Positions 16,245 to 33,793 of a stretch of DNA of 64,000 bases are shown here, in pieces; the stretch's first letter is position 1; the number at the start of each line of letters is the position of its first letter. A model generated the notes under the pieces. That model was not told the origin of the DNA, searched no databases, and was given only the letters and a program-made list of their open reading frames with translations. The DNA is from Sinorhizobium fredii NGR234. Lineage in GTDB: Bacteria; Pseudomonadota; Alphaproteobacteria; Rhizobiales; Rhizobiaceae. The stretch is from positions 3,556,001-3,620,000 of the forward strand of contig NC_012587.1 in assembly GCF_000018545.1 (NCBI RefSeq), in the 5' to 3' direction. The position numbers were made by a program, and so were the translations under genes.

Positions 16245-16568
16245 TCAAGCCGAGGCGTTGGAAATCCACGAGCTCAGCGCCGTCTTCGGCGCCGCGCCGA
16301 CCTTGATGTCGGCGACTTCGCCGGCCTTGAACAGGGCGAGCGTCGGGATCGAGCGGACGCCGTACTGGGCCGCCAGTTCAGGGTTTTCATCGATATTGAG
16401 CTTGGCAACCTTGACTTTGCCGGCAAGCTCGGTGGCGATCTCTTCGAGGCTCGGTGCGATCATTTTGCACGGGCCGCACCATTCGGCCCAGAAGTCGACG
16501 ACGACCGGCTCGGCGGAATTCAGGACTTCTTTCTGAAAATTGGACGCATCGACTTTTACAGTTGCCAT
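16245..16568 (-). CDS. trxA: Thioredoxin
   Basis: 107 aa. Redox motif WCGPC with Cys31 and Cys34, cis-Pro in RSIPTLALF, and a buried Asp in VVVDFWAEW. Size and sequence are those of cytoplasmic thioredoxin 1, general protein disulfide reductase. It is 81 bp downstream of addA, on the same strand, with its own strong terminator. Confidence 0.97.
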
Positions 16569-16649
16569 CGGCTGCTCCTTCGGAATGGCATTGTCCAGAT
16601 GTTGTGCCTCATGTGAGGCCTCGCCACCGGATTTTCAATATCGTGTATC

Positions 16650-19600
16650 TCACTTTGTCGCGAGCTCTTCAAGGCTCCGATCCAGCATCGTGTCGGGAAG
16701 CACCCGGACGGCCGGACCCTCCGTGAAGATCAGCACTGAGCGGAATTGCTTGCCGGGATAGAGCGGCTTCAGCAGATCACGGTAGATGGCGAGCTGCCGT
16801 CGGTAGACGGACGGAACGTCGTCGACCGAGGCCGGCACGTCGCGATTGGTCTTGTAATCGGCGATCGTCACCGTGTCGCCGGCAATCGCCAGGCGGTCGA
16901 GGCGGCCGGATATTGCGAACTCCTGGCTCCCGAGCTTGAGCGTTCCCATGACGGAGACTTCGGCTCGGCTCTGTTCGCCGAAGAGCGGCTGCAGTTCCGT
17001 ATGATCGAGCACATCCATTACGGCGGCGGTCAGCGCCCGCCGCTCCGTCTCCGGCCAGCCCGGCACGGCGCGCCCAAGGTAGCGTTCCGCCGCCTCCCGG
17101 CGCTTAGCCTCCTCGATCGTCGGGAGCACCTGCAGCAGCCGGTGCAGGATGGCGCCGCGCAGCATCGAGAATTTGGGCGTGGCCTGCTCGGCAAAGAGCG
17201 CCGAGCCGACGATCGCCTCCCGGTCCGGATCGTCGATGGCGACGCTGGTACCAGAAGGGGCGAGCGGCCGCGGCAGGCGGCGCGGCGGCGGCAAGGGCGT
17301 GAAGAGCGCCGGCGGCAGGATCGACGCAGCCGCGTCCGGCTTGCTCTTTGCGTCGCCACTCTCCGGGATGGTTACCGGCACAGGCGCTTCACGCCAGGCA
17401 TGGCCCGTCCATTCTTCGCCGCCGGCTGAAAAGTCCGTCGGCACCGCCCTGCCTTTCGGATCGTGCGCCAGCGTCCCCTGGACCATGGCATGCCAGGTAT
17501 CGAGGTTCTGCCGCTGGCCGCGATAACCGCAGACGATCAGCCGATCCGCCGCCCGTGTCATGCCGACATAGAGGAGGCGGCGATACTCTTCCTCCGCCAG
17601 CCGCTTCAGCCGCTCGTTGTCGGCGGCGATCAGCGAATTGGACGCCGAGCCGGGCGCCCGCCAGACCGGCACGATGACCGGAGCGCCGCCGGCCTGCGGC
17701 TTCTCCAGGAGGCGCAGGTCCGAGACCTGCTGGCGTACGAATGCCTCGCCGCCGCCGTCGACCAGGAAGACCACCGGTGCCTCGAGCCCCTTGGCGGCGT
17801 GCACGGTCATGACGCGCACCTCGTCGCGTTCCTTGTCCTGCTCGCGCTTGACGGTCGGCGCTTCGATCTCGAGCGTCGAGATGAAGGCCTGCAGGCCGGG
17901 CAGGCCGCTCCGCTCGTGGTCGAGCGCGAAGGTGAGGAATTCGTCGAGAATGTCGCTGACCTCGCTGCCGAGCCGCGCCAGGAAGGCACGTCGGCCGCCA
18001 TGGGCGCCGAGCACCCGGGCGTAGAAGTCGTGCGGCAGCAGATCGCGGGCAAGTTCGCCATAGCCGGCGAGGATCCGCACGACGCGGCAATATCGGCTTT
18101 TTTCCTCCGCACCGAGCTGCTGCAGCCGCTGCCAGAGGCTTTCGCCCTCCGCCCGCCGCGCCGCCAGGTCGAAGACGTCGTCCTCGCCGAGATTGACGAG
18201 CGGGCTTTTCAGCAGTGCGGCGAGCGACAGGTCATCTTCGGGCAGGAGCACGAAGCGGCCGAGCGCCAGGAGATCCTGGATGGCGATGTGGTTGGTCAGT
18301 ACCAGCCTGTCGGCACCGGCGACTGGAATGTTGCCGCGGCGCTTCAGCGCCCGCGTCAGCGCGTTGACGAAGGCATCGCGCTTGCGCACCAGCACGATGA
18401 CGTCGCCGGGCCGCATCGGCCGCCGGACGCCCTTCTCGATCACGGTCTCCTTGCCGATCCAGTCTTCGAGCACGGCCGCGATCCGCCGGGCGAGAATGTT
18501 GACCGGGGCCCGCTCGGGCGTCGCGTCGAAGGGTGCCGTCCAGTCGTCTTCGGAGGTGGTCGGCTCGGGCGCGATGATGTCCCAGATGTCGACCGCTCCG
18601 GGGTGGCCGATGCGGTTCGAGGCATGGACGATTGCCTCGTTCCTGGCGCTCAGGCCTTTGGCATTGCCCGGGTTGGCAAAGACCGTGTCGACTGCGGAAA
18701 GCACGTCGAGGGTGGAGCGGAAGGAGAGCTGCAGCCGGATCGGGCTGAAATACTTGTTGCCGGCGCGGACCCGACGCTCGGTCAGCACGCTTTCGCGCGA
18801 AAAGCGCTCCGGCCGAGCGCCCTGGAAGGAATAGATCGACTGCTTCTCGTCGCCGACCGCAAAGATCGTCCGGTCGTCGGCCCGCGCTGTTTCGCCGGCG
18901 AAGAAATCGGCGGCGAGCGCCTGGATGATCGTCCATTGCGCCGGGCTGGTGTCCTGCGCCTCGTCGACGAGGATATGGTCGATGCCCTGGTCGAGCTTGT
19001 AGTGGACCCAGGCGCCGACGTCGCTGCGCGAAAGCAGCGCGGCCGTGCGGTTGATCAGGTCCTCGAAATCGAGCTGGCTGCGCCGCTTCTTGAGGTCTTC
19101 GTAATCCCCGTTGAGCCTTTCCGCGAGGATCAGTGCCGCCCGCGTCGCCTCATACATGCGCACGATGCTGAGGCGATCGGCAGTTGAGACGATGTGTTGG
19201 CGTGCTTCGTCGATCAGCGGTGCGAGATGCGGCGCCTGCGCCAGCATCGCCTTGTTGAAGAAGGCAGACTCGGCCTTCGGCTTGCCGCCGCCGTTGAAGA
19301 ACACGCTCAGCAGCGAGGCGAAGCGCTCCTCCGCGTCCTTGACCTTGCAGGCTGCCTTCAGGCCCTCGGCGATTTCGACGGGTTTCGCGCCGCCGAGGCT
19401 GAGCGCGAGCCCGATATATTGCTCAAGCGCAGCGCCGTTCAGACCGGCCAGCGGCCAGGCGCCGGCCATGACGCTCTCGGCCGATTCCGTCGGAGCAAGG
19501 CCAAGCGCCGCACGCAGTTGCCGTTCGCGCCCGCTTTGCGCGGAGGCGTGGTCGAGAAAGGCCTGGATGGGCGCGCGGTTTGCGACGATCGCCTGAAGCA

Positions 19601-20219
19601 GTTTTTCAAGGCCGGTATCGTCGGCGAGATCGAGGACCGTTGCGAAGGCCTCGGCAAGCTCGGTCTCGCCCTCGGCGGCCGTCGCGCTCAGCAGGGCGCG
19701 GCGCGCATCGGCAAGCAACACAGCCGCGGCACGATCGTCGAGGACCGAAAAATGTCCCGCCACGTTGGCTTCGAGCGGAAATTGGTGCAGCAAGGCCTCG
19801 GAGAAGGCGTGGATCGTCTGGATCTTCAGCCCGCCGGGCGTTTCGAGCGCCTTTGCAAAAAGCCGCCGGGCTTCGTGGATCTTCGCAAGGGGAGGCCGTT
19901 TGCCCTCGATCGTCTCGATCCGTTTTTCAAGCGCGGCATCATCGAGCGTCGCCCATTCGGCGAGGCGCTCGAAGATGCGGTTCGACATCTCGGAAGCCGC
20001 CGCCTTCGTATAGGTCAGGCAGAGGATCGCGGATGGCCGGCACCCGGCGAGCAGCAGCCGGATGACCCGCTGCGTCAGCACATGCGTCTTGCCGGAGCCG
20101 GCATTGGCCGACACCCAGGCCGATCGGGCCGGGTCGGAGGCGAGCGACTGGCGCTCCGTCGTCCAGTCGAGCCACGCCTTGGGCGTCCTCTCCTCCGTCC
20201 CGAAGGTGTCATTCCTCAT
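16650..20219 (-). CDS. addA: Double-strand break repair helicase-nuclease AddA
   Basis: 1189 aa from ATG 20219, which overlaps the end of addB by 11 nt; an in-frame Met 20 codons upstream lies deeper inside addB and is less likely. UvrD-type helicase motifs are all visible: SANAGSGKTHVLTQRV (Walker A), LCLTYTKAAASEM, ILVDEAQDTSPAQW (Walker B), VGDEKQSIYSFQGARP and VMTVHAAKGLEAPVVFLVD, YVGMTRAADRLIV. The C-terminal nuclease domain has ISGRLDRLAIAGDTVTIADY followed by KTN. With AddB it resects DNA ends for RecA loading. Confidence 0.95.
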   Translation of the reverse strand: MRNDTFGTEERTPKAWLDWTTERQSLASDPARSAWVSANAGSGKTHVLTQRVIRLLLAGCRPSAILCLTYTKAAASEMSNRIFERLAEWATLDDAALEKRIETIEGKRPPLAKIHEARRLFAKALETPGGLKIQTIHAFSEALLHQFPLEANVAGHFSVLDDRAAAVLLADARRALLSATAAEGETELAEAFATVLDLADDTGLEKLLQAIVANRAPIQAFLDHASAQSGRERQLRAALGLAPTESAESVMAGAWPLAGLNGAALEQYIGLALSLGGAKPVEIAEGLKAACKVKDAEERFASLLSVFFNGGGKPKAESAFFNKAMLAQAPHLAPLIDEARQHIVSTADRLSIVRMYEATRAALILAERLNGDYEDLKKRRSQLDFEDLINRTAALLSRSDVGAWVHYKLDQGIDHILVDEAQDTSPAQWTIIQALAADFFAGETARADDRTIFAVGDEKQSIYSFQGARPERFSRESVLTERRVRAGNKYFSPIRLQLSFRSTLDVLSAVDTVFANPGNAKGLSARNEAIVHASNRIGHPGAVDIWDIIAPEPTTSEDDWTAPFDATPERAPVNILARRIAAVLEDWIGKETVIEKGVRRPMRPGDVIVLVRKRDAFVNALTRALKRRGNIPVAGADRLVLTNHIAIQDLLALGRFVLLPEDDLSLAALLKSPLVNLGEDDVFDLAARRAEGESLWQRLQQLGAEEKSRYCRVVRILAGYGELARDLLPHDFYARVLGAHGGRRAFLARLGSEVSDILDEFLTFALDHERSGLPGLQAFISTLEIEAPTVKREQDKERDEVRVMTVHAAKGLEAPVVFLVDGGGEAFVRQQVSDLRLLEKPQAGGAPVIVPVWRAPGSASNSLIAADNERLKRLAEEEYRRLLYVGMTRAADRLIVCGYRGQRQNLDTWHAMVQGTLAHDPKGRAVPTDFSAGGEEWTGHAWREAPVPVTIPESGDAKSKPDAAASILPPALFTPLPPPRRLPRPLAPSGTSVAIDDPDREAIVGSALFAEQATPKFSMLRGAILHRLLQVLPTIEEAKRREAAERYLGRAVPGWPETERRALTAAVMDVLDHTELQPLFGEQSRAEVSVMGTLKLGSQEFAISGRLDRLAIAGDTVTIADYKTNRDVPASVDDVPSVYRRQLAIYRDLLKPLYPGKQFRSVLIFTEGPAVRVLPDTMLDRSLEELATK

Positions 20220-23200
20220 CGTCGTCCTCCCCGTCGGCCGTCGCCCATTCCGCGACGCGTGCCAGGTGGTCGTATTCACCGCCGTAGTCCCGTTCCTTCT
20301 GGACGATCAGGCGCGAGGCGAAGCCGTATTTTCCGCTGGTCAGCGCGGCGAGCAGCTTCCTCAGTTCGGCAAGCGATTCCTCTGCCAGTTGCTCGGCGGT
20401 TTTGGTCTCCCTCGACTTGCTGTTCTCGTTGTTGACCGTGTCGACGGCAAAGCGGCTGCCGGGCTTGAGGCGAACATAGCGCAGCGCATGCGGCCGGGCC
20501 GGCCCGATCGTGCCGAAGGCGCCCGCCTTGAGCGCCGCCGCCTCGAGCGCGAGCTGCGGGTCGAGCAGCGCCCGCGCTTCCTTCGCCGAAGGGCTGGAGC
20601 CCGTCTTGTAATCGATGATGTCGACCGTACCGTTCGCCAGCCGGTCGAGCCGATCGGCGATCCCGGTCAGTCTGATGTCCGAGACACCGACATCCATCGC
20701 GGCAGGAGCCTCGGTGAAGGACCTGACGATCGTGTGCCGGCGCTCCCGCTCCCAGGAAAGAAACGCCCTTGCCACCGCCTCGAAGCGCGGCCGCCAGATC
20801 GTGTCGATGTGAGCCGGGAGTTGCTCCTCGTCGAAGGCTTCCCGGATCAGTCGCACCATCGCCTCTTCCCCATCGCCGGAGGCGGGGTCGAAACCGCCCT
20901 TGACGAAGCGGTCGACGATCCGGTGGTAGAGCAGGCCGCGTTCGGCGGCGCCCGGATCACGGTTGAAGGAATCGATCGGCTCCAGCCGCAAGATGCGGCG
21001 CGCATAGATGGAATAGGGGTCGCGGCGAAGCTTGGTCACCTCGCTGAAGGAGTATTTGCGTGGCTGCAACTCGACTGGCGGCTTCGGCTGCGGCCGCTCG
21101 CTGAGCGGCTGGCGCTCGCCGCCGTCTAGGATGCGCATCCAGTGAAGATAGCTGGCGCCATTCGCCTTGAGCTGTTCGGTCAAAGTTTTGCCGCCAAGCG
21201 CCTGCAGCCGCTGCACCCATCGCGAGGCGACGGTCGGCGCGGAGCCCTGGCGCATGGAGCGGGAAAGAATCAGACGGCGCGTTCCGCAGGCCATCTGGAA
21301 ATCATGGGCGAGCTGACCGATGCGCCGCTCCGGCGGTTCGAGGCCGATGCCCGACTTCATCGTCCGCGACAGGAAAGGGTCGTTGGAGGTCTGTCCCGGC
21401 CAGGTGCCCTCGTTCAGGCCGCCCAGCACGACGAGATCGACGCTTTGCAGGCGCGATTCCAGCGCCCCGAAGATGAAGACGCGCGGGTGTCGCATCGATC
21501 GCGGTTTGACCGCTTCGCTGGCGGCAAGCGCCACGACGATATCGCACCATTGCCGTCCGTCGGCCTCCATCTGCCCGTCGGTCTCGATGATGCTTCGCAG
21601 AAGCGTTGCCAATGCTTCGCCGGCTTCCGACCCCCAAAGCTCGCCGAGGCTGCCGCGCTCGTCGATGGCGACAGCCTCCAGCGCCCGACCGGTACGTTCC
21701 GCCCAGTCGGCGAGGGTCAGGACCATGGAGTGATGGCGGCCACCTTCCGACCCGCCGGCGTTGGTGCTGGTCAGCGGCTCGACGGCCGTTGAAATGCGCC
21801 CCGCAAGTGCCCGTGCGCGGGCGATATCGCCTTGATCGATGCCGCGGCGCCAAGGTCTCGGGTGCCGCTCGGTGCGCTGCCTGGCGAGTGCCTTGTCGAG
21901 CACGGCTTCGAGGCCGGAGATATCGGAAAGGTCGGTGCCGCCGCGCAGCGCCAGAAGCTCCAGCACGTCGGCCGCCCGCCGGGTATCTACGGCCGTCTGG
22001 CCGAAGCGGGCGAGCGGATGCTTGAGCAGCGCCACCAGGGCCACCGGATCGTCGGGTCTGAGGGTCGCCTCGATCAGCAGCCGCGCCAGCGCGCCAGCCG
22101 ACGTCGCCGAGAGCGGCACGCCGGCGGAGTCATCGGCTTCGATGCCGAACCGGGCGAGTTCCGCCCCGACGCGCCGCGCCAGTCCCCGATCCGGAGTGAT
22201 CAGCGCCGCCTGGCTCTCTTCGTCGCCTTCGAGCGCCAGCCGCAGCGCAATGGCGATCGCGGCCGCCTCCTCGCGCTCGTTCGCCGCCTCGATCAGCGCC
22301 ACGTCGGCGAAGGCCGCAAGGAGCTTCTCCGGCTCGAAACCGCCGCGCGCCTCAGTCCAGCCGTCAGTGGCCTCGGCCGGGAGCAGCGCCCGCGAAAGCA
22401 CCGCGCCGCGATAACCGAGGTCATCGTCGAGCGATCCCAAAACCGGCACGTCGAGACGTTCGATGCGCATGCGCTTCAGAAAGCGGTGGAAGCCATACTG
22501 CGGATGGGTGCGGCTTGCCGGGCCTCTTGCAGGCGGGCCTGAAGCGGCGACCTCTGCGATAAGCTCCCATTCCGTCTCGCTCATCACGAGGTCCAGGCCG
22601 GGAAGCACGATCGTGCCGTTCGGCAGCGTCTTCACCGCGGCTATCAGGGCGGCGGTCGCGGGGATCGAGCCGGTCGAGCCGGCGATGATGATTGGCCCGC
22701 TTACCTTGCCGGCGGCAATCCGCTGTGTTTCGGCTTTGAGCATCGCGTTGCGATGCCGCGCCGGCGAGGAATGCTTGAGTTCGTCGAGCCGTTCCGGCCA
22801 ATAGATCCGGGCAATCTTCAGGAAGGCCAGTGTCAATTGCCACCAGAGCGCATGCTCGCCGCCATCAAGCCCGTCGAGCGCGTCCCAGTCGAGCTCCTCC
22901 GTCTCGATCGCGTCTATCAGCTCGGCGAGATTGCGCGCCAGCCAGATGGCATCGGCCGGGCTCGCCGGCGCGATCAGCGGGCTTTCGGCATGAATGTCGA
23001 GGACCACCTGCGGCAGGCGGTTGCGCCAGGCAAGGATCAGCCGGCCGAGCTCGATCAGCCGTTGGGTGCCGGAAAGCGGCGGCGCCAGATCGAGGATCGC
23101 CGGCATCTCGGCGTCGAAGAAGCCGCTGTCATCGTCCGTCTCGCCAAGCGGGCGGATCACCGGCAGGATCGCCGAGCGGCCGCCGAGCAGGTCGACGAAT

Positions 23201-23388
23201 TCCGAGCGCAGGACGCGGGCCGCACGCCGCGTCGGCACGAAGATCGTCACGCCGGCGAGCGCCAGCGGATCGGCCGATTCGTATTGGAAGTCCGGCGTCA
23301 GCACGCCGCCCAGGAGTTTTTCCGCCAGCGTCTTTAGGAAAGGCAGGCCGGCAGGAATCGTGAAGACGTTGGAGGCTCGTCCGGGCAC
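20209..23388 (-). CDS. addB: Double-strand break repair protein AddB (alphaproteobacterial type)
   Basis: 1059 aa, GTG start at 23388 only 1 bp after the murU stop; the murU tail GGAGGGTAGG serves as ribosome site. Inactivated helicase-like N-terminus plus a C-terminal RecB-type nuclease, IADRLDRLANGTVDIIDYKT with metal Asp and Lys. I do not see the four-cysteine iron-sulfur pattern found in Bacillus AddB; very few cysteines are present, in line with the distinct alphaproteobacterial form. Partner of AddA. Confidence 0.94.
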   Translation of the reverse strand: MPGRASNVFTIPAGLPFLKTLAEKLLGGVLTPDFQYESADPLALAGVTIFVPTRRAARVLRSEFVDLLGGRSAILPVIRPLGETDDDSGFFDAEMPAILDLAPPLSGTQRLIELGRLILAWRNRLPQVVLDIHAESPLIAPASPADAIWLARNLAELIDAIETEELDWDALDGLDGGEHALWWQLTLAFLKIARIYWPERLDELKHSSPARHRNAMLKAETQRIAAGKVSGPIIIAGSTGSIPATAALIAAVKTLPNGTIVLPGLDLVMSETEWELIAEVAASGPPARGPASRTHPQYGFHRFLKRMRIERLDVPVLGSLDDDLGYRGAVLSRALLPAEATDGWTEARGGFEPEKLLAAFADVALIEAANEREEAAAIAIALRLALEGDEESQAALITPDRGLARRVGAELARFGIEADDSAGVPLSATSAGALARLLIEATLRPDDPVALVALLKHPLARFGQTAVDTRRAADVLELLALRGGTDLSDISGLEAVLDKALARQRTERHPRPWRRGIDQGDIARARALAGRISTAVEPLTSTNAGGSEGGRHHSMVLTLADWAERTGRALEAVAIDERGSLGELWGSEAGEALATLLRSIIETDGQMEADGRQWCDIVVALAASEAVKPRSMRHPRVFIFGALESRLQSVDLVVLGGLNEGTWPGQTSNDPFLSRTMKSGIGLEPPERRIGQLAHDFQMACGTRRLILSRSMRQGSAPTVASRWVQRLQALGGKTLTEQLKANGASYLHWMRILDGGERQPLSERPQPKPPVELQPRKYSFSEVTKLRRDPYSIYARRILRLEPIDSFNRDPGAAERGLLYHRIVDRFVKGGFDPASGDGEEAMVRLIREAFDEEQLPAHIDTIWRPRFEAVARAFLSWERERRHTIVRSFTEAPAAMDVGVSDIRLTGIADRLDRLANGTVDIIDYKTGSSPSAKEARALLDPQLALEAAALKAGAFGTIGPARPHALRYVRLKPGSRFAVDTVNNENSKSRETKTAEQLAEESLAELRKLLAALTSGKYGFASRLIVQKERDYGGEYDHLARVAEWATADGEDDDEE

Positions 23389-23389
23389 C

Positions 23390-24121
23390 CTACCCTCCCG
23401 GTTCGAAGCGCCGGACCACGGCCTCCGCCTCCTCGATGGCGTCAGGCGTGCCGACGGTCATCCACTGGCCGTCGAGCATCAGCCCGAAGAGACGGCCTCT
23501 GTCGATCGCCCGGTCGAAATAGATATTGAGGTTGAAGGCATCGGTGGGGGCATCGGCGAACAGCCGTGAATCCATGGCGATTGCGCCCGCATAGACCACC
23601 GGATTTTCCATGCCGTCCGCGTAGCGCGTCAGCGCCCCCTCCTCGGACAGCGAAAAATCCTTCTTGCCGTTGTGCCCCGTCGTGTCCTCCAGGCGCACGC
23701 AGAGCAGCGCCATGTCCATGCGCTCCGGATCGAAGAAGGCGGCGAGCCGCTGCAGGTTGCAGGGTTGCCCGGCCTTCTCGCCGACCCAGAAGAGATCGGC
23801 ATTCATCACCAGCACCGGTCCGTTGTCGAGCAGCTTCAGCCCCTTGGCAAGCCCGCCGCCGGAATTCATCAGCGCCTCACGCTCGTCCGAAACCAGGATG
23901 CGCGGCGTCTCGCGCCGGCTGAGATGGGCCTCCATCTGGTCGGCGAAGTGGTGGACGTTCACGGCGGCCTTGGTGACGCCGGCGGCCGCGAGCAGGTCCA
24001 GCACGTAGTCGATCATCGGCTTGCCGGCGATCTGGACGAGTGGCTTCGGCAGTGTGTCGGTGATCGGCCGCAGGCGGGTGCCCAGTCCGGCCGCAAGCAC
24101 CATGGCATTGGTGATCGACAT
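23390..24121 (-). CDS. murU: N-acetylmuramate-1-phosphate uridylyltransferase
   Basis: 243 aa nucleotidyltransferase with MVLAAGLGTRLRPITDTLPK followed by PLVQIAGKPMIDY, LVMNADLFW (metal Asp) and TVGTPDAIEEAE. MurU makes UDP-MurNAc from MurNAc-1-phosphate and UTP in the peptidoglycan recycling shortcut first shown in Pseudomonas. The strongest support is context: it lies 9 bp after a gene whose second half is AmgK-like, the kinase that makes MurU's substrate. A mannose-1-phosphate guanylyltransferase is the alternative name often given to this family. Confidence 0.86.
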   Translation of the reverse strand: MSITNAMVLAAGLGTRLRPITDTLPKPLVQIAGKPMIDYVLDLLAAAGVTKAAVNVHHFADQMEAHLSRRETPRILVSDEREALMNSGGGLAKGLKLLDNGPVLVMNADLFWVGEKAGQPCNLQRLAAFFDPERMDMALLCVRLEDTTGHNGKKDFSLSEEGALTRYADGMENPVVYAGAIAMDSRLFADAPTDAFNLNIYFDRAIDRGRLFGLMLDGQWMTVGTPDAIEEAEAVVRRFEPGG

Positions 24122-24130
24122 GATTTCCTG

Positions 24131-25636
24131 TCAGTTGGCTGATTCGCTAGCCAGGATTCCAGCCTTAATGCACCAATCGCGCAAGGGTGTCAGCACTTCA
24201 TGCGTCAGTGCATGCTGAAGATAGCCGAAGGTGCGCGGCATGTGCTTCATGTAGCCGGGCTTGCCGTCGCGCTCTTTCAGTCGCACCCAGATGCCGGCGA
24301 GCTTGCAGTTGCGCTGCGCCGCCATGATATGCCAGTCGCGCAGGAAGGCCGTCTCGTCGAAGCTTCCGGAAGCCTTGCGCTCGGCGATGTAGGTGCCCAT
24401 CAGCCTGTCTGCCAGCTCGCGGTCGATCGTGACGCGGGCGTCCTGCACCAGCGAGGCAACGTCGTAAGCCGTCGGCCCGATCATCGCGTCCTGGAAATCG
24501 ATGATGCCGATGCGGTCGAGGCCATCGCGCTCCGCCCGCCACAGGATGTTGGGCGAGTGGAAATCGCGCAGCAGCAGGTTCTTTTCGGTTGAGCCGAGAC
24601 TATCGATCAATCGGTCCCAGATCGCGAAGTACTCGCTTCGCTCCGCGTGCGATGCAGGCCGTCCGCGCTTCCAGGGCAGGTACCAGTCGATCAACAGGCT
24701 CGTCTCGATCTTGATTGCCGTGCGGTCGAAGTCGGGAATGTGATGGACGATGCCGTCGGCGACCGCGATGTCGCGCTCGGGTGGCGCGGCATGGAGACGG
24801 CCAAGCAGCCGCACGGCCTCGCTATAGCGCTCGACGACGGGCCGGCCTTCGGCGTCGAGAATGCCCTCGGCACCCAGATCCTCGATGAGCAGCAGTCCCA
24901 GGTCGAGATCGCGGGCGTAGATCGCCGGTGCTGCGAAGCCGCGTTGGCGCAACAGTTCGGAAATGGCGACGAAGGGGACGACGTCCTCGGCGATATGGGC
25001 GAGCTGCTGGTAGTATTTGCCGTCCTGGAGGATCGGGCCGGGCTTGTGCCTGGCCGCGTCCATCATGATTTTCGCCGGCTCACCGTCGTGGATCCGCTCA
25101 TAGGCCCGCACCGAGGCATCGCCGCTCAGGTGCCGTCGGCCTGCGTGCGGATAACCGGCATCCGACAGGAAGGCCCGGATGGCAAGCGAACGGGCGATCC
25201 GCTCGAAGGCCGCGTCAGGCCCAGTGATCCGGACGCGCCGCCCTTCGCCCTCATGCGTGAAGCTCAGCATGATACGCTCGGCAGGCAACGCTTCGGCGGC
25301 CTTCTCGGGCCATTCGACAAGACAGATGCCTTCCGCGAGCGCCTCGTCGAAGCCGAGTTCGTCGAGCTCGGAAGCGTCGGCGAGACGGTAGAGATCGAAA
25401 TGCGCGACGGGGATCCGAAGCTCGTAGCTCTGCACGACGGTGAAAGTGGGGCTCGGCACCTCGAGCCCTTCGTCGTCTGCCATCGCCCGGAGGAAGGCGC
25501 GCGCGAAGGTCGACTTGCCCGCCCCAAGGTCGCCCGAGAGGCCGACGCAATCGCCTTTTTTCAGGGCCAGCGCCAGGTCTTCGCCGAGCTCGATCGTCGC
25601 GGCTTCGTCCTTCAGCAGGCGTTCGAGAGACTTCAT
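24131..25636 (-). CDS. TsaE-AmgK fusion: tRNA t6A ATPase subunit joined to anomeric amino-sugar kinase
   Basis: 501 aa, two domains in one frame. Residues 1 to about 150 are TsaE: Walker A GLSGDLGAGKSTFARAFL, SPTFTVVQSYE, HFDLYRLADASELDELG and CLVEWPE, needed for threonylcarbamoylation of A37 in ANN-decoding tRNAs. Residues from about 165 on are an aminoglycoside phosphotransferase-like kinase: LSGDASVRAYERI, GLLLIEDLG, catalytic LLLRDFHSPNILW and metal-binding IGIIDFQDAMIGPTAYDVAS, matching AmgK, which phosphorylates MurNAc/GlcNAc at C1. It is 7 bp after divL and 9 bp before murU. No frameshift or weak linker is apparent. Confidence 0.9.
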   Translation of the reverse strand: MKSLERLLKDEAATIELGEDLALALKKGDCVGLSGDLGAGKSTFARAFLRAMADDEGLEVPSPTFTVVQSYELRIPVAHFDLYRLADASELDELGFDEALAEGICLVEWPEKAAEALPAERIMLSFTHEGEGRRVRITGPDAAFERIARSLAIRAFLSDAGYPHAGRRHLSGDASVRAYERIHDGEPAKIMMDAARHKPGPILQDGKYYQQLAHIAEDVVPFVAISELLRQRGFAAPAIYARDLDLGLLLIEDLGAEGILDAEGRPVVERYSEAVRLLGRLHAAPPERDIAVADGIVHHIPDFDRTAIKIETSLLIDWYLPWKRGRPASHAERSEYFAIWDRLIDSLGSTEKNLLLRDFHSPNILWRAERDGLDRIGIIDFQDAMIGPTAYDVASLVQDARVTIDRELADRLMGTYIAERKASGSFDETAFLRDWHIMAAQRNCKLAGIWVRLKERDGKPGYMKHMPRTFGYLQHALTHEVLTPLRDWCIKAGILASESAN

Positions 25637-25643
25637 CGAAAAA

Positions 25644-28127
25644 CTATTCCGCCGCGATGATCTTCGGCATTTCGGCGGAGGGGATGCGGCAGGTGACTTC
25701 GGTGCCTTCGCCTTCCTTGCTGCGGATCGAGACGGTGCCGTGATGCAGGCTGACGAAACTTTCGACGATCGACAGGCCGAGGCCGGCGCCGCCGCGCTGG
25801 CCGTAGCTTTCGAAGCGGTTGAACACGGTGTTCAGCACGTCCTGCGGGATGCCCGGTCCGGTGTCGCTGACCGAAAAGACGAAATCGCCGCCTTCGCGCC
25901 GGCATTTGAGGTCGATGGCGCTGCCGTCGGGTGCGAAATTGGCGGCATTGGTCAAGAGCTTGATGAAGACCTGCTTTAGCCGCTGTTGGTCCGCGACGAT
26001 GCGTCCGAGATTGTCGGCGGCATCGATTCGCAGCGAAGCGCCGCTCTCCGTCAGCCTGTCGGCCATCTGCTGCGCCACGTCGTCGAGCAGGTCCAGAAGG
26101 TTCACCTCGGACATGTCGAGCTCGACGATGCCGGCATCCACCGTCGCAAGGTCGAGAATGTCGTTGACGATCGTCAGCAGCAGCGCCGAGGAGGTGGCGA
26201 TGTGATCGACATATTCCGCCTGGCGGTCGTTGAGCGCGCCGAAGGCCGGTGTCTTCAGGAGGTCGGCGAAGCCGATGATGTTGGTCAGCGGCGAGCGCAG
26301 CTCGTAGGAAACATGATGGACGAAATCGTTCTTCAGCGCATCGGCCTTGCGCAAGGCTTCGTTCTTCTCCGTCAGCGCCCGCTCGACCCGCACGCTGTCG
26401 GTGATGTTGACGAAGGTCAGCATCGTCTGGGCGTTGGGCAGTGGAATGACCGCATAGTCGAGGATCAGCCCGGTGCGAAGCTCGAGGATGCCGCGGCTCG
26501 ACGGCCGCTCGTCGTCGAAGCTGGTGATGATATGGGCGAAACGCTTCCAGCCATCCGGCTGGTCGTAGGAGGAAAGGCACGCCTGCTCGACGGCGCGGAT
26601 ATGGGTGCCGGGCTTCGCTTCCACCTCGCTGATGCCCCAGATCGCCCGGAAGGCCGGATTGGACAGCCGGATGCGGCCGTCCGGCCCGAACACCGCGACG
26701 CCCTCGGCAAGGTGGTCGATCGTTTCGCCTTGAACCTGCACCAGCGTGTTGTAGCGGATTTCGAGATCGACTTTTTCGGTCAGGTTCTCGAAGACCCAGG
26801 TCGCGCCGCCTTGGGGTCGCGCCGTGGCGAAGACGCGCAAGGTCTGCCCGTTCGGCAGGTGCCAGAGGTCGGACTGCGTGTCGAGGGCCTGGTAGACCGA
26901 CAGCGCGTTCGCCTTCCATTGCTTCCAGTTCAGCTGTTCCGGCAGCTTGTTGCCGGCCCGCAGCCGGTCGAGCACTTCGCCATTGTCCGGCTTGCGCTCC
27001 AGGAATCCCATGTCCAGTTCCCAGAGACGCTGGAAAGCCTGGTTGTAGAACTGCAGGCGCTGATTGCCGTCGAAGATCGCCACGGGCGTTGCCAGGTGGT
27101 CGAGCGTTTCGGCGTGGCTCTTCAAGGTGCGCGCCAGTTCCTCGCGCACTGCTTCGATGCCCGAAACGTCGATGGCGATGCCCGCCGAGCCGGCGTGCGT
27201 GCGGGCATCGACGACGTCGAAGAAGGTCCGGTTGCCCTTGACGACGGTGGAGAGCTTGTCGCGGAAGGGCGTTTCGAAGCTCGAGACGGCGCGGATTTTT
27301 TCGCGCGCCGCGGTCGCCAGCAATTCGCGCCCCTCGGAGGCCGCCGCTGCCGGGCTGCGCGCGTCGACCGCCTCGGCATAGGCCTCGTTGACCCATTCGA
27401 GTTTGCCGTCCGCGCCGCGCTGCCAGACCGGCAGGTCGATCGCATCGAGAAGGGTGCGGAAGGTCGAGAGCGAGACATGCAACTGGTCGCGATCGAGCTT
27501 CAGCTCGGCGAGCTCAGCCCGCAGATTGTTGAGCGCGATGAAGCGCACGAAGGCGCGTCCGCCCGAGACGCGGCCCTGCGCCTCCAGCACCTCGTTGCGC
27601 TGCGTTTCGAGCACCAGGTCGAAGCTTTGCGCCTGGGCGCGCAAGGCCTCGATCGCTTTCTCGAGCTGGCCCGCCGATTGCGGCTTGATCCAGCGGCCGA
27701 AGGCAAGAAAATCCCGGTCGTCTTGCGGCGCGCCGGTCTCGAGCGGAAGCTGTCCGAGGAATTCCGGGCGCTCCGCCAGACCGTCCCAGACGACGATCCG
27801 CCGGTTCTTGTCGGCAATCAGCGCCTGGAAACGGGAAATCCGCTGGTTGGCGTCCGAAAGATCGGCGCGCAGCGCACGATTCTCCGCTTCGATGTTGCCG
27901 CGCTGGCGGATCAGCCAGATTGCCGAAAGCATGGCTGCGGAGATCACCCCGATCAGCACGGAAAAGGTCACGACTTCGGACGTGCCGAAAATCGATCTGG
28001 CGACCGGAGCGGAAGCCTGGGCGGCCGCATCGGTTGCCGCAAGAAGGGTCGTGCCGGCGAGCAGGCGCCGCATCAGCCGGGAAGCCTTGCGGCCGTCGCC
28101 GAAAAAGCTGGCTCGTTCTCTTTTCAT
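25644..28127 (-). CDS. divL: DivL-like PAS-domain pseudo-histidine kinase
   Basis: 827 aa from ATG 28127; the frame stays open 64 codons further up but that part overlaps repeat DNA. One membrane segment at about 52-73, a coiled stretch to 98, then four PAS-like segments starting near 100, 222, 350 and 480, DHp region, and HATPase_c with GGAGLGLSIVESFV. In the H-box, VSYELRSPLTNIIGFADLL, tyrosine (Tyr608, codon at 26304-26306) replaces the usual histidine. This is the hallmark of DivL, which in Caulobacter controls CckA and so CtrA and cell-cycle progression. It heads the tsaE-amgK/murU/addBA run. Confidence 0.85.
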   Translation of the reverse strand: MKRERASFFGDGRKASRLMRRLLAGTTLLAATDAAAQASAPVARSIFGTSEVVTFSVLIGVISAAMLSAIWLIRQRGNIEAENRALRADLSDANQRISRFQALIADKNRRIVVWDGLAERPEFLGQLPLETGAPQDDRDFLAFGRWIKPQSAGQLEKAIEALRAQAQSFDLVLETQRNEVLEAQGRVSGGRAFVRFIALNNLRAELAELKLDRDQLHVSLSTFRTLLDAIDLPVWQRGADGKLEWVNEAYAEAVDARSPAAAASEGRELLATAAREKIRAVSSFETPFRDKLSTVVKGNRTFFDVVDARTHAGSAGIAIDVSGIEAVREELARTLKSHAETLDHLATPVAIFDGNQRLQFYNQAFQRLWELDMGFLERKPDNGEVLDRLRAGNKLPEQLNWKQWKANALSVYQALDTQSDLWHLPNGQTLRVFATARPQGGATWVFENLTEKVDLEIRYNTLVQVQGETIDHLAEGVAVFGPDGRIRLSNPAFRAIWGISEVEAKPGTHIRAVEQACLSSYDQPDGWKRFAHIITSFDDERPSSRGILELRTGLILDYAVIPLPNAQTMLTFVNITDSVRVERALTEKNEALRKADALKNDFVHHVSYELRSPLTNIIGFADLLKTPAFGALNDRQAEYVDHIATSSALLLTIVNDILDLATVDAGIVELDMSEVNLLDLLDDVAQQMADRLTESGASLRIDAADNLGRIVADQQRLKQVFIKLLTNAANFAPDGSAIDLKCRREGGDFVFSVSDTGPGIPQDVLNTVFNRFESYGQRGGAGLGLSIVESFVSLHHGTVSIRSKEGEGTEVTCRIPSAEMPKIIAAE

Positions 28128-28278
28128 GGCGCCGTCCCCGTTGATCCGCAAAGTGCTGCCGACCGCGCGTCGCCATGCCCGAAACCCTCGAGGAGGGTTT
28201 GCGTCCGTTCCGATTGCATCCCCGGTCTGTCTCCGTCTGTTTGCCGCTTCCGACAAGACATCCCCGCTCGCAACGCCA

Positions 28279-28379
28279 CTGCATGTTTCCTTAAATCGCC
28301 GATTCAAGGATAAAAACATGCAGCATCCAAAGTGCTACAGCGACTTTTGTGCGTCTGGAAAGACGCACAACGCTGCAGG
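28279..28379. repeat. Two-hairpin composite palindrome, copy 2 (best preserved)
   Basis: Module one: CTGCATGTTTCCTTAAATCG with GATTCAAGGATAAAAACATG then CAG. Module two: AAAGTGCTACAGCG, a GTGCGTCT/AGACGCAC stem with GGAA loop, CGCTGCAGG. Same layout as 1498-1594 and, inverted, as 33482-33587 and 33680-33783. Confidence 0.78.
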
Positions 28380-28486
28380 CCCCGCACCATGCCGCTCTTC
28401 AATCCTTCGACTGAAAATCCGCACCAGCGTCACGAATCAATGACTTAAACAATACTTCTTTGAAGATTCGCCGCAAAGTGCGTGGC

Positions 28487-28528
28487 CCAAAAAAGCGGCC
28501 GCGATCTCTTGTCAAGATCGCGGCCACA
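28487..28528 (-). terminator. Rho-independent terminator of ahcY
   Basis: Minus strand: TGGCCGCGATCTTG and CAAGAGATCGCGGCCGCTTT form a stem of more than 10 bp (GGCCGCGATC/GATCGCGGCC) followed by TTTTTT. It begins about 28 bp after the ahcY stop. Strong call. Confidence 0.9.
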
Positions 28529-28555
28529 AGATGTTGTGGATTTCCCGGGTAAGGA

Positions 28556-29956
28556 TTAGTACCGGTAGTGTTCGGCCTTGAACGGACCCTGCGGCTTCAC
28601 GCCGATATAACCGGCCTGCTCTTCCGAAAGCTCGGTCAGCCTGGCGCCGAGCTTGGCGAGATGCAGGCGGGCGACCTTCTCGTCGAGCTGCTTCGGCAGG
28701 ATGTAGACTTCGTTCTTGTAGTTGCCGCCCTTGGTAAAGAGCTCGATCTGCGCCAGCACCTGGTTGGAGAAGGAGGCCGACATGACGAAGGACGGGTGGC
28801 CGGTGGCGTTGCCGAGATTCAGGAGGCGGCCTTCCGAAAGCAGGATCAGCCGGTTGCCCTTCGGGAACTCGATCAGGTCGACCTGCGGCTTGACGTTGGT
28901 CCACTTGAGGTTCCGGAGCGCGGAAACCTGGATTTCGTTGTCGAAGTGGCCGATATTGCCGACGATCGCCATGTCCTTCATCGCGCGCATGTGCTCGATG
29001 CGGATGACGTCCTTGTTGCCGGTGGTGGTGATGAAGATGTCGGCGGTCGAGACGACGTCCTCGAGCTGCACCACTTCATAGCCGTCCATGGCGGCCTGCA
29101 GGGCGCAGATCGGGTCGATCTCGGTGACCTTGACGCGGGCGCCGGCGCCCTGCAGCGAGGCGGCCGAGCCCTTGCCGACATCGCCATAGCCGCAGACCAC
29201 GGCGACCTTGCCGGCCATCATCACGTCGGTGCCGCGACGAATGCCGTCGACGAGCGATTCCTTGCAGCCGTACTTGTTGTCGAACTTCGACTTGGTGACG
29301 CTGTCGTTGACGTTGATTGCCGGGAAGGGCAGCAGGCCCTTGGCCTGGAGCTGGTAGAGGCGGTTGACGCCGGTGGTCGTCTCTTCGGTCACGCCCTTGA
29401 TGGCGTCGCGCTGCTTGGTGAACCAGCCCGGCGAGGCGGCAAGCCGCTTCTTGATCTGGGCGAAGAGGATTTCTTCTTCCTCCGAGCCGGGGTTGGTCAG
29501 CACGTTCTCGCCGGCTTCGGCGCGGGCGCCGAGCAGGATGTACATGGTGGCGTCGCCGCCATCATCGAGGATCATGTTGGAGACGCCGCCATCGGCCCAC
29601 TGGAAGATCTTGTCGGTATAGGTCCAGTATTCCTCGAGGGTCTCACCCTTGATGGCGAAGACCGGGACGCCGCTTGCAGCGATCGCCGCTGCGGCATGGT
29701 CCTGCGTCGAGAAGATGTTGCAGGACGCCCAGCGGACCTCCGCGCCGAGCGCCACCAGCGTCTCGATCAGGACGGCGGTTTGGATGGTCATGTGCAGCGA
29801 GCCGGTAATCCGCGCGCCCTTCAGCGGCTTCGATGCGCCGAACTCCTCGCGGCAGGCCATCAGGCCCGGCATTTCCGTTTCGGCGATGGCGATTTCCTTG
29901 CGGCCGAAATCGGCAAGCCCGATGTCGGCGACAATATAGTCCTGAGTTGCGGTCAT
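28556..29956 (-). CDS. ahcY: S-adenosylhomocysteine hydrolase
   Basis: 466 aa from ATG 29956, preceded by CTGGAGAACTCC; 17 more open codons upstream were not used. Splits SAH to adenosine and homocysteine, keeping methylation running. Features: [36 protein letters not shown], the NAD fold [23 protein letters not shown] and the C-terminal HYRY ending that closes the partner's NAD site. It also has the roughly 40-residue insert typical of the long bacterial/plant-like form. A perfect palindrome 126 bp upstream is a likely operator. Confidence 0.97.
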
Positions 29957-30081
29957 GGAGTTCTCCAGGCTGGTTCCTTGGGCGCGCCGCGTCGTGTTCC
30001 GCGGCATGACAATGCCTCCCGCGCTTCAAGCTGACGGGGAGAGTGCGCCCGGTCTATCAGGAATCAGAGGGGAGGGCAACT

Positions 30082-30107
30082 AACATATAAAGAGGTCTTT
30101 ATATGTT
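30082..30107. promoter_or_regulatory. Perfect 26-bp palindrome upstream of ahcY, likely SahR-type operator
   Basis: AACATATAAAGA and TCTTTATATGTT are exact inverse complements separated by GG. AT-rich ATAT...ATAT palindromes with AAAGA/TCTTT cores upstream of ahcY fit the binding pattern of ArsR-family, SAH-responsive regulators (SahR) described in Proteobacteria. It is strikingly AT-rich against the surrounding GC-rich DNA. The position, 126 bp before the ahcY ATG, is close to where the promoter should be. No SAH riboswitch fold was recognised. Confidence 0.62.
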
Positions 30108-30190
30108 TATATCAGCTGCATTCGGTTCGGCTCGGAGCGGCCCCTCATCCGACCTGCCGGCCACCTTGCAGCATATCGCCGAAACGGATT

Positions 30191-30481
30191 TCACATCTCT
30201 TCGCCGAACTTGTCGCGCACCAGCGCGTCGAGGGCGTTCAGAGCCTCTTCGGCCTGGTTGCCGCTGGCAGTCACGAAGACCGTGCAGCCGGTGCTGGCCG
30301 CCAGCATCATCAGCCCCATGATCGACGTTCCGCCGACGGTCATGCCGTCCTTGGAGACGGTGATCTCGGCATCGTAGGCCTCGACCGTCTGCACGAATTT
30401 CGCCGAGGCCCGCGCATGCAGGCCGCGCTTGTTGACGATCAGCAGCTCGCGCGTCAGCGCCGTGTCGGAGAGGTGGTCCAT
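30191..30481 (-). CDS. ptsH: HPr-like phosphocarrier protein
   Basis: 96 aa. The phosphorylated histidine is His22 in VNKRGLHARASAKFV and the regulatory serine is Ser53 in GGTSIMGLMML, the target of HPr kinase. Its ATG shares one nucleotide with the manX stop (TAATG). No EIIB or EIIC gene is nearby, so this is the regulatory, non-transporting phosphorelay of alphaproteobacteria. It is fed by EI-Ntr encoded elsewhere. Last gene of the chvI-chvG-hprK-manX-ptsH set. Confidence 0.95.
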   Translation of the reverse strand: MDHLSDTALTRELLIVNKRGLHARASAKFVQTVEAYDAEITVSKDGMTVGGTSIMGLMMLAASTGCTVFVTASGNQAEEALNALDALVRDKFGEEM

Positions 30482-30882
30482 TATTTGCCACTCAGGACGC
30501 GGCTGGCGACATTGATGTATTTGCGGCCCGCCTCGGAAGCCTCGACAAGGGCCTTGTCCATGTCGCTTTCGCCCCGGACGCCGGCGAGCTTGATCAGCAT
30601 CGGCAGGTTGACGCCGGCAATCACCTCGACGACGCCGCTGCGCATCACGGAAATAGCGAGATTGGAGGGCGTGCCGCCGAACATGTCGGTCAGGATGATC
30701 ACGCCGTTGCCTTCGTCGGCACCTTCGACCGCGTCGAGGATATCCTGACGCCGCTGGTCCATGTCGTCCTCGGGGCCGATGCACACCGTCTCGATAGCTT
30801 TTTGCGGACCGACGACATGCTCCAAGGCAAGCCGAAACTCATCCGCCAGCTTGCCATGGGTGACAAGCACAAGTCCGATCAT
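30481..30882 (-). CDS. manX: PTS EIIA component, mannose family
   Basis: 133 aa. His9 in GLVLVTHGKLADEFRLAL is the phosphorylation site; ILTDMFGGTPSNLA is the family signature loop. It stands without EIIB/C/D, so it is probably a regulatory end point of the HPr relay rather than a sugar transporter part. Stop overlaps the ptsH start; 155 bp separate it from hprK upstream. Confidence 0.93.
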   Translation of the reverse strand: MIGLVLVTHGKLADEFRLALEHVVGPQKAIETVCIGPEDDMDQRRQDILDAVEGADEGNGVIILTDMFGGTPSNLAISVMRSGVVEVIAGVNLPMLIKLAGVRGESDMDKALVEASEAGRKYINVASRVLSGK

Positions 30883-31037
30883 GGGTATCTTTGCTCCAAC
30901 TGCAGTGCAACTCGTCGATGGTCAGATATCGCAATGCAGCAATTTCGTCCACCTGTTGGGGCGGCCATCTTGGCAAGGAAAAGCTGAAGTGCAAGCCAAA
31001 AATGCCGAAAAAGCAGCCGACCTGCCTCTCATTAAGG

Positions 31038-31496
31038 CTAAAGACCTAGTTTTTGCGGCAGCAATGCCGCGAGTGCATCGACCGGCCCGAGCGGAGTTTC
31101 AATCGGAAGACGCAGCATCGGCAGACTTCGCCCGATCTCAAGCTTCAGTTCCTCCTGTTCCGGAGGCAGGCGCGGATCGAATGGCGCGCGCACCGGCAGG
31201 ATCGCCCATTCGAGGACGCAGGCGGGCAGAGTTTCGACTTCAGCAATGCCGCTGCCACGGATCTCGATCAGCCCGCGGATCGATGCGGGGCAGCGCGCCA
31301 CGATCCGCTCGTTCGCAAGCGTGAGGTCGACCCGGTCGTCGGCAATGAGCGCCGCGAAGCGGCCGCGGCGCCTGACCTCGGAAATCAAGGCGAGCGCCAG
31401 GGCAGATTTTCCCGATCGGGAAGGGCCGGTGACGAGGAAGCCGGTCGCGCCGAGCACCATGGCGGTACCGTGGATGTTGCAGATTGGCGTCGTCAC
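31038..31496 (-). CDS. hprK: Short HPr kinase/phosphorylase
   Basis: 152 aa, GTG start at 31496 overlapping the chvG stop (GTGA). Only the catalytic domain is present, about half the length of the Firmicutes enzyme, the usual alphaproteobacterial form. P-loop GPSRSGKS at residues 24-31, LIADDRVDL, and the family signature RGLIEIRGSGIAEV. It phosphorylates and dephosphorylates Ser53 of HPr. The C-terminal PLGPVDALAALLPQ tail is family-like. Coupling to the chvG sensor kinase links envelope sensing with the phosphorelay. Confidence 0.93.
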   Translation of the reverse strand: MTTPICNIHGTAMVLGATGFLVTGPSRSGKSALALALISEVRRRGRFAALIADDRVDLTLANERIVARCPASIRGLIEIRGSGIAEVETLPACVLEWAILPVRAPFDPRLPPEQEELKLEIGRSLPMLRLPIETPLGPVDALAALLPQKLGL

Positions 31497-33280
31497 GCGT
31501 GCGGCTCGGCTGGGAGGGCGAGGATGAAGCGGGCACCGGTCACCTCGCCGCCCCGGCCGACGATGTTTTCCGCCTTGAGCGTGCCGCCATGCGCCTCGGC
31601 GATCTGGCGCGAAATCGACAGGCCGAGACCGGAATTCTGACCGAAATCCTCGCCTTCCGGTCGGTCCGTGTAGAAGCGCTCGAAGATCCGGTCGATGTCT
31701 TCCGCCTGGATGCCGGGTCCGTTGTCCTCGACATAGACAAGGCAGCGCGACCGCGAGCGGGCCAGGCGCAGGATGATCCGGCCGTTCGGCTCCGGCACGA
31801 AGGAGCGGGCGTTCTCGATGAGGTTGGTGATGATCTGGCCGATGCGCAGGTCGTAGCCGCTGACGATGAAGTTCGCCTTCGGATTGTCCTTGCGGTCGAC
31901 GACGAAGTCGAGCAGCACGGGCTTCTTCTTGCCGCGAATCTGTCGGGAAATGTCGACGAGGTCGCCGAGCAGTTTCTCGAGGTCGATCTTCTTGGCATCG
32001 CTGCGCGCCAGTTCGGCATCGAGCCGCGAGGCGTCGGAAATGTCGCTGATCAGCCGGTCGAGGCGACGGACGTCGTGCTGGATGATGTCGAGGAGCCGCT
32101 TCTTCGAGTCGTCGGTGCGCGCCAGCGGCAGCGTCTCGACGGCGCTCCTGAGCGAGGTAAGCGGGTTCTTGAGCTCGTGGCTGACGTCGGCGGCGAAGGC
32201 CTCGATCGCCGCGATGCGGTCGTAGAGCGCCGTCGTCATTTCCCGGAGCGCCACCGAGAGATTGCCGATTTCGTCCTGGCGGGAGGAGAAATCCGGGATT
32301 TCCTCGCGCTCCTTGGCGCCGCCGCGGCGCACCCGGATGGCGGCGGCCGACAGCCTGCGCAAGGGATTGGCGATCGTCGACGACAGGAGCAGCGACAGGA
32401 TGACGTTGACGAGCGCCGCCACCCCGAAGACGCGGATGATCGCCAGGCGTTCCGCATGGACGATCTTGTCGATGTCGCCCGCCTGGGTGGAGAGCAGCAA
32501 CACGCCGAGCACGGCGCGGAAGCGCTGCACCGGCACCGCCACGGAGACGATCAGCTCGCCCTTCTCGGTGACGCGCACCACCGCGCCACGCACGCCGGTC
32601 AGCGCATTCATCACCTCCGGATAGATCGAGCCATTGCCGCCCGGCGGCTCCTTGTAGAGCGGCAGGTCGCCCGGCTGCAGCAAGCGGTTGAACCAGGTGC
32701 CGATCTTCTCCGAAACGCTCGACGTCTCCGGATCGACGGGCGGGAGGTCGAAACGCAGCACCTGGCCGCCGCTATAGAGATGGCGCGAGTCGAGCAGCAG
32801 GTCGGCGTCGGCATCGAACAGGCGGGCGCGGGTGCGGGTCGGCGAGATCAGCCGCCTGAGGACCGGCGCGACCCGCTCCTGGATGATCGGGAATTCCAGG
32901 TCCTCGTCGCTCGGCAGTGGAGTTATGCTTTCGCCGGCCTGCAGTTCGAGCAGTTTTTGCGGATCGATGGTGATCGAGTTGGTGTCGACCGACGCCGAAG
33001 CGGAGATGGCGCCGGCGATGATCTCGCCTTGCGTCAGCAGGCTTTCCACGCGGGCGTCGATGAGACCCTCGCGGAATTGGTTCAGGTACATGATCCCGCC
33101 GACCAGAACGACGAGCGCGACGAGGTTGAAGAAGACGATGCGCCGCGTCAGGCTGGAGAAGACGGCGTTGCCGAACAGCCTGCGGATCAGCGTGAACGGA
33201 TGCGCCCACCGGCGCCTTCCACGCAGCGCCGACGACCGCCCGTCCGAATCTTCGATCTCGCCCTGCAAGACTTCTACCAA
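31493..33280 (-). CDS. chvG: Sensor histidine kinase ChvG/ExoS
   Basis: 595 aa from TTG 33280, preceded by GTGGGAGCGGAAGAC; this length fits the known S. meliloti ExoS. The frame is open up to an ATG at 33424, so a longer form is possible. Two membrane helices (RIVFFNLVALVVLVGGIMYL and IIRVFGVAALVNVILSLLLS) flank a periplasmic sensor of about 250 residues; then HAMP, H-box FAADVSHELKNPLTSLRS, and HATPase with NLIENARSFVP, DNGPGI and GLGLSISRQI. Pairs with ChvI to control exopolysaccharide, motility and acid response. Confidence 0.93.
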   Translation of the reverse strand: MVEVLQGEIEDSDGRSSALRGRRRWAHPFTLIRRLFGNAVFSSLTRRIVFFNLVALVVLVGGIMYLNQFREGLIDARVESLLTQGEIIAGAISASASVDTNSITIDPQKLLELQAGESITPLPSDEDLEFPIIQERVAPVLRRLISPTRTRARLFDADADLLLDSRHLYSGGQVLRFDLPPVDPETSSVSEKIGTWFNRLLQPGDLPLYKEPPGGNGSIYPEVMNALTGVRGAVVRVTEKGELIVSVAVPVQRFRAVLGVLLLSTQAGDIDKIVHAERLAIIRVFGVAALVNVILSLLLSSTIANPLRRLSAAAIRVRRGGAKEREEIPDFSSRQDEIGNLSVALREMTTALYDRIAAIEAFAADVSHELKNPLTSLRSAVETLPLARTDDSKKRLLDIIQHDVRRLDRLISDISDASRLDAELARSDAKKIDLEKLLGDLVDISRQIRGKKKPVLLDFVVDRKDNPKANFIVSGYDLRIGQIITNLIENARSFVPEPNGRIILRLARSRSRCLVYVEDNGPGIQAEDIDRIFERFYTDRPEGEDFGQNSGLGLSISRQIAEAHGGTLKAENIVGRGGEVTGARFILALPAEPHA

Positions 33281-33481
33281 GTCTTCCGCTCCCACGACGA
33301 AATATTCGCCGCCCGTTTCATTTGCGCGACCGCCTGGGGCCGAGCTGCCTCTGCTGCGCTCGGAATGTCTCCCGCCGGCCGCCGTTTCCGCGAGCGAGCA
33401 ACGAGCTCCCCGGCTCGAGGTCAATTGCGCTGCCTTCCGCCGAAACCCGCCTTGTCCGGCGGAATCGCTCGCAGCTATGAT

Positions 33482-33783: not shown

Positions 33784-33793
33784 CGGCACCGCC

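Follow-up and report, generated by a model that had tools for sequence, protein, structure and literature searches.

We consider it very probable that the gene described here, from Sinorhizobium fredii NGR234, encodes a two-headed enzyme that came about by the merger of two overlapping neighbour genes, tsaE and amgK. TsaE is essential in bacteria; the N-terminal half would be the TsaE of this cell, the ATPase resetting TsaD-TsaB in the synthesis of t6A. The C-terminal half would be the AmgK of the order (Rhizobiales), placing a phosphate onto C1 of N-acetylmuramic acid (MurNAc) and probably also of GlcNAc, and MurU, encoded 9 bp on, would convert the AmgK product to UDP-MurNAc. Both enzymatic activities of the fused protein are what we infer from its sequence.

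The fused gene and its neighbourhood

On the minus strand, positions 24131-25636 of the window (the whole stretch of 64,000 nucleotides analysed here) form a single open frame of 501 aa, and the plus-strand translation of the same positions contains stops. An earlier note on this DNA had described an uninterrupted frame joining TsaE to a kinase, leaving the strand unstated; the frame is borne out over 501 codons, and all motifs quoted in that note (GDLGAGKST, HFDLYR, VEWPE, LRDFHSPNILW and IGIIDFQDAMIG) are read in it. Among the matches listed, proteins with 80% identity or more mostly belong to Sinorhizobium, with one 'Mesorh' entry, and Ensifer aridi reaches 83%. The AlphaFold2 model of the fusion consists of two domains (mean pLDDT 92.5; pTM 0.88, the one measure behind their relative placement), with one continuous helix predicted to span the joint between them. 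Since a codon scan of the window gene found no in-frame ATG, GTG or TTG at residues 126-175, there is no separate kinase start in this region, and translation of the kinase on its own from an internal start was rejected for this gene. A Met somewhere in the joint occurs in 27 of 58 fused rows of the alignment, and for some of those an internal kinase start is conceivable.

Table 1 Position of the fused gene, its parts and its neighbours in the window
Feature	Position	Strand	Remarks
TsaE half, residues 1-140	25217..25636	minus	Walker A GDLGAGKS at residues 35-42
Bridge, residues 141-159	25160..25216	minus	Helix in the AlphaFold2 model, leading from TsaE into the kinase; pLDDT of the block 95-96
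AmgK-like sugar kinase half, residues 160-501 and stop	24131..25159	minus	Catalytic loop RDFHSPN at 357-363; metal site DFQD at 380-383
MurU-like nucleotidyltransferase, 243 aa	23390..24121	minus	NF045697, E 7e-69; starts 9 bp after the stop of the fusion
addB	20209..23388		Placed only by position and by eye; unannotated in the S. meliloti Ak57 record
Sensor histidine kinase gene (putative)	25644..28319	minus	Just upstream of the fusion; S. meliloti Ak57 has here an 'ATP-binding protein' gene with 90.5% identity
Syntenic block chvI-chvG-hprK-IIA-HPr-ahcY-HK-tsaE/amgK-murU-(addB)-addA-trxA	16263..34519	minus	tblastn

The MurU-like gene lies where the earlier note had placed it, directly behind the fusion (Table 1). 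NF045697 is its best NCBIfam match, but the MurU naming cut-offs (370 and 250 bits) are not reached (231.8 and 139.7 bits). As the MurU model gave matches in all 14 control genomes, in one of them above the cut-off, weak matches were not taken for MurU in any of the counts. AnmK is encoded elsewhere in the genome (E 6e-83), and because AmgK and MurU are present by sequence as well, the salvage route appears plausible in this organism.

The window has counterparts of all 11 genes annotated between chvI and trxA, these two included, in the S. meliloti Ak57 record; their order is the same and their identity 80-97% (tblastn; the transposase of that record was excluded). In Brucella, the bvrRS operon comprises 16 co-transcribed genes, one of them in the place of the fusion, and the positional counterpart of the upstream histidine kinase gene is named DivL there (PMC9491525); operon transcription is what we infer for the NGR234 locus, too. 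The separate tsaE-amgK-murU block of other Alphaproteobacteria, for example Sphingomonas, has the same gene order, with ahcY and a PAS protein before it and a nuclease-family gene behind it, but consists of three separate overlapping genes, in contrast to the fusion plus murU seen here.

Identity of the two halves

A domain search placed TsaE at residues 9-133 (PF02367, E 2e-36) and AmgK at residues 154-489 (NF045698, E 1e-63), and the profile matches uphold the identities which that note had given to TsaE, AmgK and MurU. Both TsaE models exceed their curated cut-offs (125.2 versus 26.6 bits for PF02367, 112 versus 60.1 for TIGR00150); the Walker A lysine and the conserved H, D, E and W are kept in 58 of 58 aligned rows, and no other gene of this genome exceeds the TsaE cut-off. 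The Walker A, HxDxYR and EW motifs, the fold and the single copy above cut-off are thus common to this half and TsaE (YjeE), the ATPase of the t6A complex; it differs in that TsaE accounts for no more than residues 1-140 of the 501 aa, with a terminal helix running on, in the model, into the kinase.

In the kinase half, the two best NCBIfam models are both AmgK, NF045698 with 215.9 bits being followed by NF045759 (E 2e-32, 112.7 bits), and the general APH family matches as well (PF01636, E 8e-21). The APH-type catalytic residues D358 and N363 and the metal-binding D380 are invariant (58 of 58 aligned rows), and the genome contains no AmgK other than the fused gene. With the AmgK of Pseudomonas and Caulobacter it has in common the best NCBIfam match, the residues of the catalytic loop and of the metal site, a murU gene immediately behind it and AnmK in the genome; unlike these, it is not a free protein, being fused behind TsaE, and it stays below the curated naming cut-offs (500 and 550 bits), which none of 140 genomes of the order and only two of 241 genomes of the class reach. 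As the scores of AmgK and MurU both fall short of the NCBI cut-offs, automatic naming would miss the two of them.

The scores below the curated cut-offs would also fit a C-terminal half that is a different kinase of the APH type, or one that is inactive and serves as a scaffold, and structure comparison also lists, at lower Z, corramycin phosphotransferase as well as homoserine, choline and aminoglycoside kinases. We regard this as highly improbable, given that both leading models are AmgK, that MurU is encoded next door and that the catalytic residues are kept throughout. Genetic data on genes taken as orthologues point in the same direction: the fosfomycin Tn-seq study of A. tumefaciens names Atu0026 AmgK and Atu0025 MurU (PMC9790009), and amgK mutants of Caulobacter are reported to be fosfomycin-sensitive (PMC13046382; PMC11980594), with MurNAc accumulating in one study. 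In Pseudomonas, AmgK and MurU and their part in intrinsic fosfomycin resistance are established (PMC5371407).

The structure closest to the kinase half is PDB 3csv from Silicibacter, deposited as 'putative aminoglycoside phosphotransferase', which may itself be an unrecognised AmgK.

Distribution in the order

The earlier note had suggested a survey of the fusion across Rhizobiales, and among 140 evenly drawn genomes of the order, each at least 95% complete, it turned out to be order-wide. AmgK was found in 131 and TsaE in 138 of them, and both matches lie within one open frame in 128 of the 131 AmgK-bearing genomes; of the other three, two (G352, G255) are cut by contig ends and in one (G302) the frame is broken. 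Named genera with the fusion are Ensifer, Rhizobium, Mesorhizobium, Bradyrhizobium, Rhodopseudomonas, Methylobacterium, Xanthobacter, Bartonella and Roseibium, taken from the best 80 of at least 590 confirmed stretches, which were chosen by patterns of the kinase half alone and among which Agrobacterium is absent. Both halves were matched in 79 of these 80 loci, the 80th starting at a contig end; by script the frame is clean and single in 77, and in two more with nothing but an ordinary final stop at codon 497. Chance, or a frameshift or sequencing artefact, is ruled out by the one frame shared among 128 of 131 AmgK genomes and 79 of the best 80 named loci.

Behind the fusion, a MurU match follows within 400 bp in 64 of the 80 loci and at a greater distance, of up to about 950 bp, in another 15; in the one from Ferranicluibacter rubi (L108, 4491-7491) the fusion is present and no MurU match was found within 3 kb behind it. 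A protein of 651 aa (P0319) was considered as a triple TsaE-AmgK-MurU fusion and rejected: its TsaE starts after the Walker A motif, its MurU is truncated and, by eye, the frame seems to shift at the joint. The triple frame is probably an assembly or frame-shift error. Three genomes (G278, G254 and G348; loci L088-L090) possess a second, free-standing AmgK-like kinase beside the fusion.

Origin of the fusion

In the class sample of 241 genomes, AmgK was matched in 184 and TsaE in 238, and in some of these genomes (e.g. G001, G186, G179, G214), among the matches listed, tsaE and amgK are situated on different contigs. Of the 30 best-scoring AmgK loci, 28 are separate pairs, from other orders, and tsaE directly precedes amgK in all 28. 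In 25 of them the nearest candidate for the amgK start, which was by rule the one nearest to the tsaE stop and may differ from the true start, lies at most 20 nt from that stop and in a different frame; in a Sphingomonas record, tsaE, kinase and nucleotidyltransferase genes overlap by 4 bp each. Because such neighbours overlap in different frames, a small indel can fuse them, and the passage from side-by-side tsaE and amgK genes to one fused gene would have taken this route. Repeated small indels in an overlapping gene pair would explain the fusion wherever it is found.

The fusion arose more than once. Outside the order it occurs in eight genomes of five other families, and one of these eight (G053, 90% complete with 5% contamination) contains a separate pair as well. 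In a tree of 69 loci (41 fused), which came from a short search, the label changes five times between fused and separate, with only two of these changes forced by well-supported branches; a single origin of all fusions was rejected on this tree (AU test against a single fused clade, p 0.00096). The fused rows of the order form one clade (SH-aLRT 92, short of the star mark). Within the order, a single merger probably preceded its radiation, and other lineages would have acquired the fusion anew.

A kinase retained without AnmK and MurU

Members of one genus (g194) shed further light on the kinase half. The fused protein of one of them (G372) is nearest to the named Bartonella loci (56 and 51%). 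Among the 61 genomes of this genus, 40 have the full fused kinase, four have remnants with stops and 17 have none. The genomes with AnmK and those with a strong MurU match (E < 1e-50) are an identical set of 13, each carrying the fusion, and 27 genomes (including locus L087) carry the fused kinase with neither AnmK nor a strong MurU match. In these 27, the catalytic D358 is kept in all but one (N in G406), and N363, D380, Q382 and D383 are kept in all. Median pairwise dN/dS is 0.169 for the kinase half and 0.172 for the TsaE half (347 of 351 pairs passing the dS filter), and 13 non-overlapping pairs range from 0.133 to 0.217 for the kinase: the fused kinase of the pathway-less genomes is under purifying selection. 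The 13 holders of AnmK and MurU have values of 0.113 for the kinase and 0.096 for the TsaE half (30 of 78 possible pairs, 57 being computable), and since the TsaE half rises likewise, the higher dN/dS in the pathway-less genomes is not specific to the kinase. When the 40 fused proteins were placed in a quick tree, which gave long-branch warnings, the 27 stood on one side of a branch. The loss of AnmK and MurU was therefore probably a single event, after which the kinase has been kept.

As the kinase survives in these 27 genomes without AnmK and MurU, feeding MurU cannot be its only use there. It is possible, if on balance somewhat doubtful, that the kinase half acts more broadly as a sugar 1-kinase, handing GlcNAc 1-phosphate to GlmU or removing free sugars, with MurU as one customer among others, which would be compatible with the merger of neighbouring genes. 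The selection on the kinase and the near-invariant D358 in the pathway-less genomes would fit, as would the report that the AmgK of Pseudomonas makes GlcNAc 1P (PMC5371407); by analogy with that acceptance of GlcNAc, a role as GlcNAc 1-kinase would be the simplest reading of the pathway-less kinase. Against it, 21 of the 61 genomes have lost the kinase (17 without a match and the four with remnants), and the pathway-less clade shows variation at a few positions that are conserved elsewhere, G172 being kept in 14 and R452 in 22 of 27. Only tentatively, and as rather unlikely, do we put forward that the kinase half outlived AnmK and MurU through a second job, be it the supply of GlcNAc 1-phosphate for GlmU or that of a wall-sugar-sensing partner adjusting the attached TsaE, which would link wall turnover to t6A.

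Independence of the two halves

The earlier note had taken the fusion to make the t6A factor and wall recycling stoichiometric. As a requirement, such a 1:1 ratio is unsupported, since TsaE persists without the kinase and the kinase without AnmK and MurU. Within the sample of 140 genomes, nine are without AmgK; eight of these have a free-standing TsaE in frames of 146-183 codons, and in the remaining one (G313) the profile search gave no TsaE match. Directly behind the free-standing TsaE, MurU follows in G368, G287 and G345, and an addB-like gene (named by eye) comes after MurU in G368 and G287 and after TsaE in G317 and G282. Strong matches to the MurU model (E < 1e-39) without detectable AmgK are present in G244, G287, G345, G366 (family f141) and G368, those of G244 and G366 lying elsewhere in the genome and being weaker (E 2e-43 and 7e-40). 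In the four remnant genomes of the Bartonella-like genus, TsaE is intact over 148 residues (70-72% identity) and the kinase is in pieces. TsaE is therefore independent of the kinase, standing free in most AmgK-less genomes and intact beside a decayed kinase in four. In 23 hand-picked genomes of the 140, AnmK was present in 12 of 13 with intact AmgK versus five of 10 with AmgK missing or broken (Fisher p 0.05), which is only suggestive of AmgK and AnmK being strictly lost together throughout the order.

The same data bear on a regulatory fusion, in which the kinase half, on binding sugar or ATP, or wall stress acting via the ChvG-ChvI block, would tune TsaE and so couple wall turnover to tRNA modification and translation. 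Such coupling would agree with the joint frame in nearly all AmgK genomes of the order and its repeated origin, with the fixed geometry suggested by the predicted helical bridge and the pTM of 0.88, and with the purifying selection on the kinase half in the pathway-less genomes. Co-transcription of the Brucella bvrRS operon, including the gene in the place of the fusion (PMC9491525), and the rise of chvG and chvI transcripts reported for Agrobacterium on depletion of PBP1a (PMC9731437) could be seen in the same light. However, TsaE does without the kinase in eight of nine AmgK-less genomes and beside four decayed kinase halves, and the overlap of the two genes makes their fusion mechanically easy, for which reasons we find regulation of this kind quite improbable. 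That the fusion is nearly fixed in the order could also point to a benefit from it. Under the merger of overlapping neighbours, which we favour, the fusion would seem to be cheap and tolerated, and not to have been favoured because it lets tRNA modification and wall recycling communicate.

Annotation and implications

The supposition of the earlier note that the gene may be annotated as TsaE alone holds in part. It applies to the S. meliloti Ak57 record, to the table of the Brucella operon, where the gene in the place of the fusion is listed as 'TsaE' and the next one as 'mannose-1-phosphate guanylyltransferase' (PMC9491525), and to many sister NCBI entries among those listed. It does not apply to some JGI entries, named 'N-acetylmuramate 1-kinase', nor to NCBI entries P0004, P0025 and P0156, which are the same two-domain protein under the name 'bifunctional tRNA (adenosine(37)-N6)-threonylcarbamoyltransferase complex ATPase subunit type 1 ...'; from these names it follows that annotators have already met the two-domain protein. 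In the main text of the Tn-seq paper (PMC9790009), the words 'TsaE' and 'fusion' are both absent. A literature search, mostly of papers outside subscription, found no paper containing both TsaE and AmgK, nor one in which TsaE occurs along with the words phosphotransferase, fusion and bifunctional.

Our preferred reading of the fusion is a merger of long standing that has been tolerated; the salvage pathway is a known one, residing in a fused and often under-annotated gene. In rhizobia and related genera, probably agrobacteria too, one gene would then provide both a tRNA factor and the fosfomycin-bypass kinase, often under the name TsaE only. Essentiality and knock-out data for this gene would mix two functions: insertions near the start would be expected to affect t6A, and those further along wall recycling alone. 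The 27 genomes in which the kinase is under selection and both AnmK and MurU are missing offer a concrete test of a role of AmgK beyond UDP-MurNAc; if the kinase does have a second job there, and if this were general to the order, the fusion would be a true coupling device and AmgK not only a feeder of MurU.
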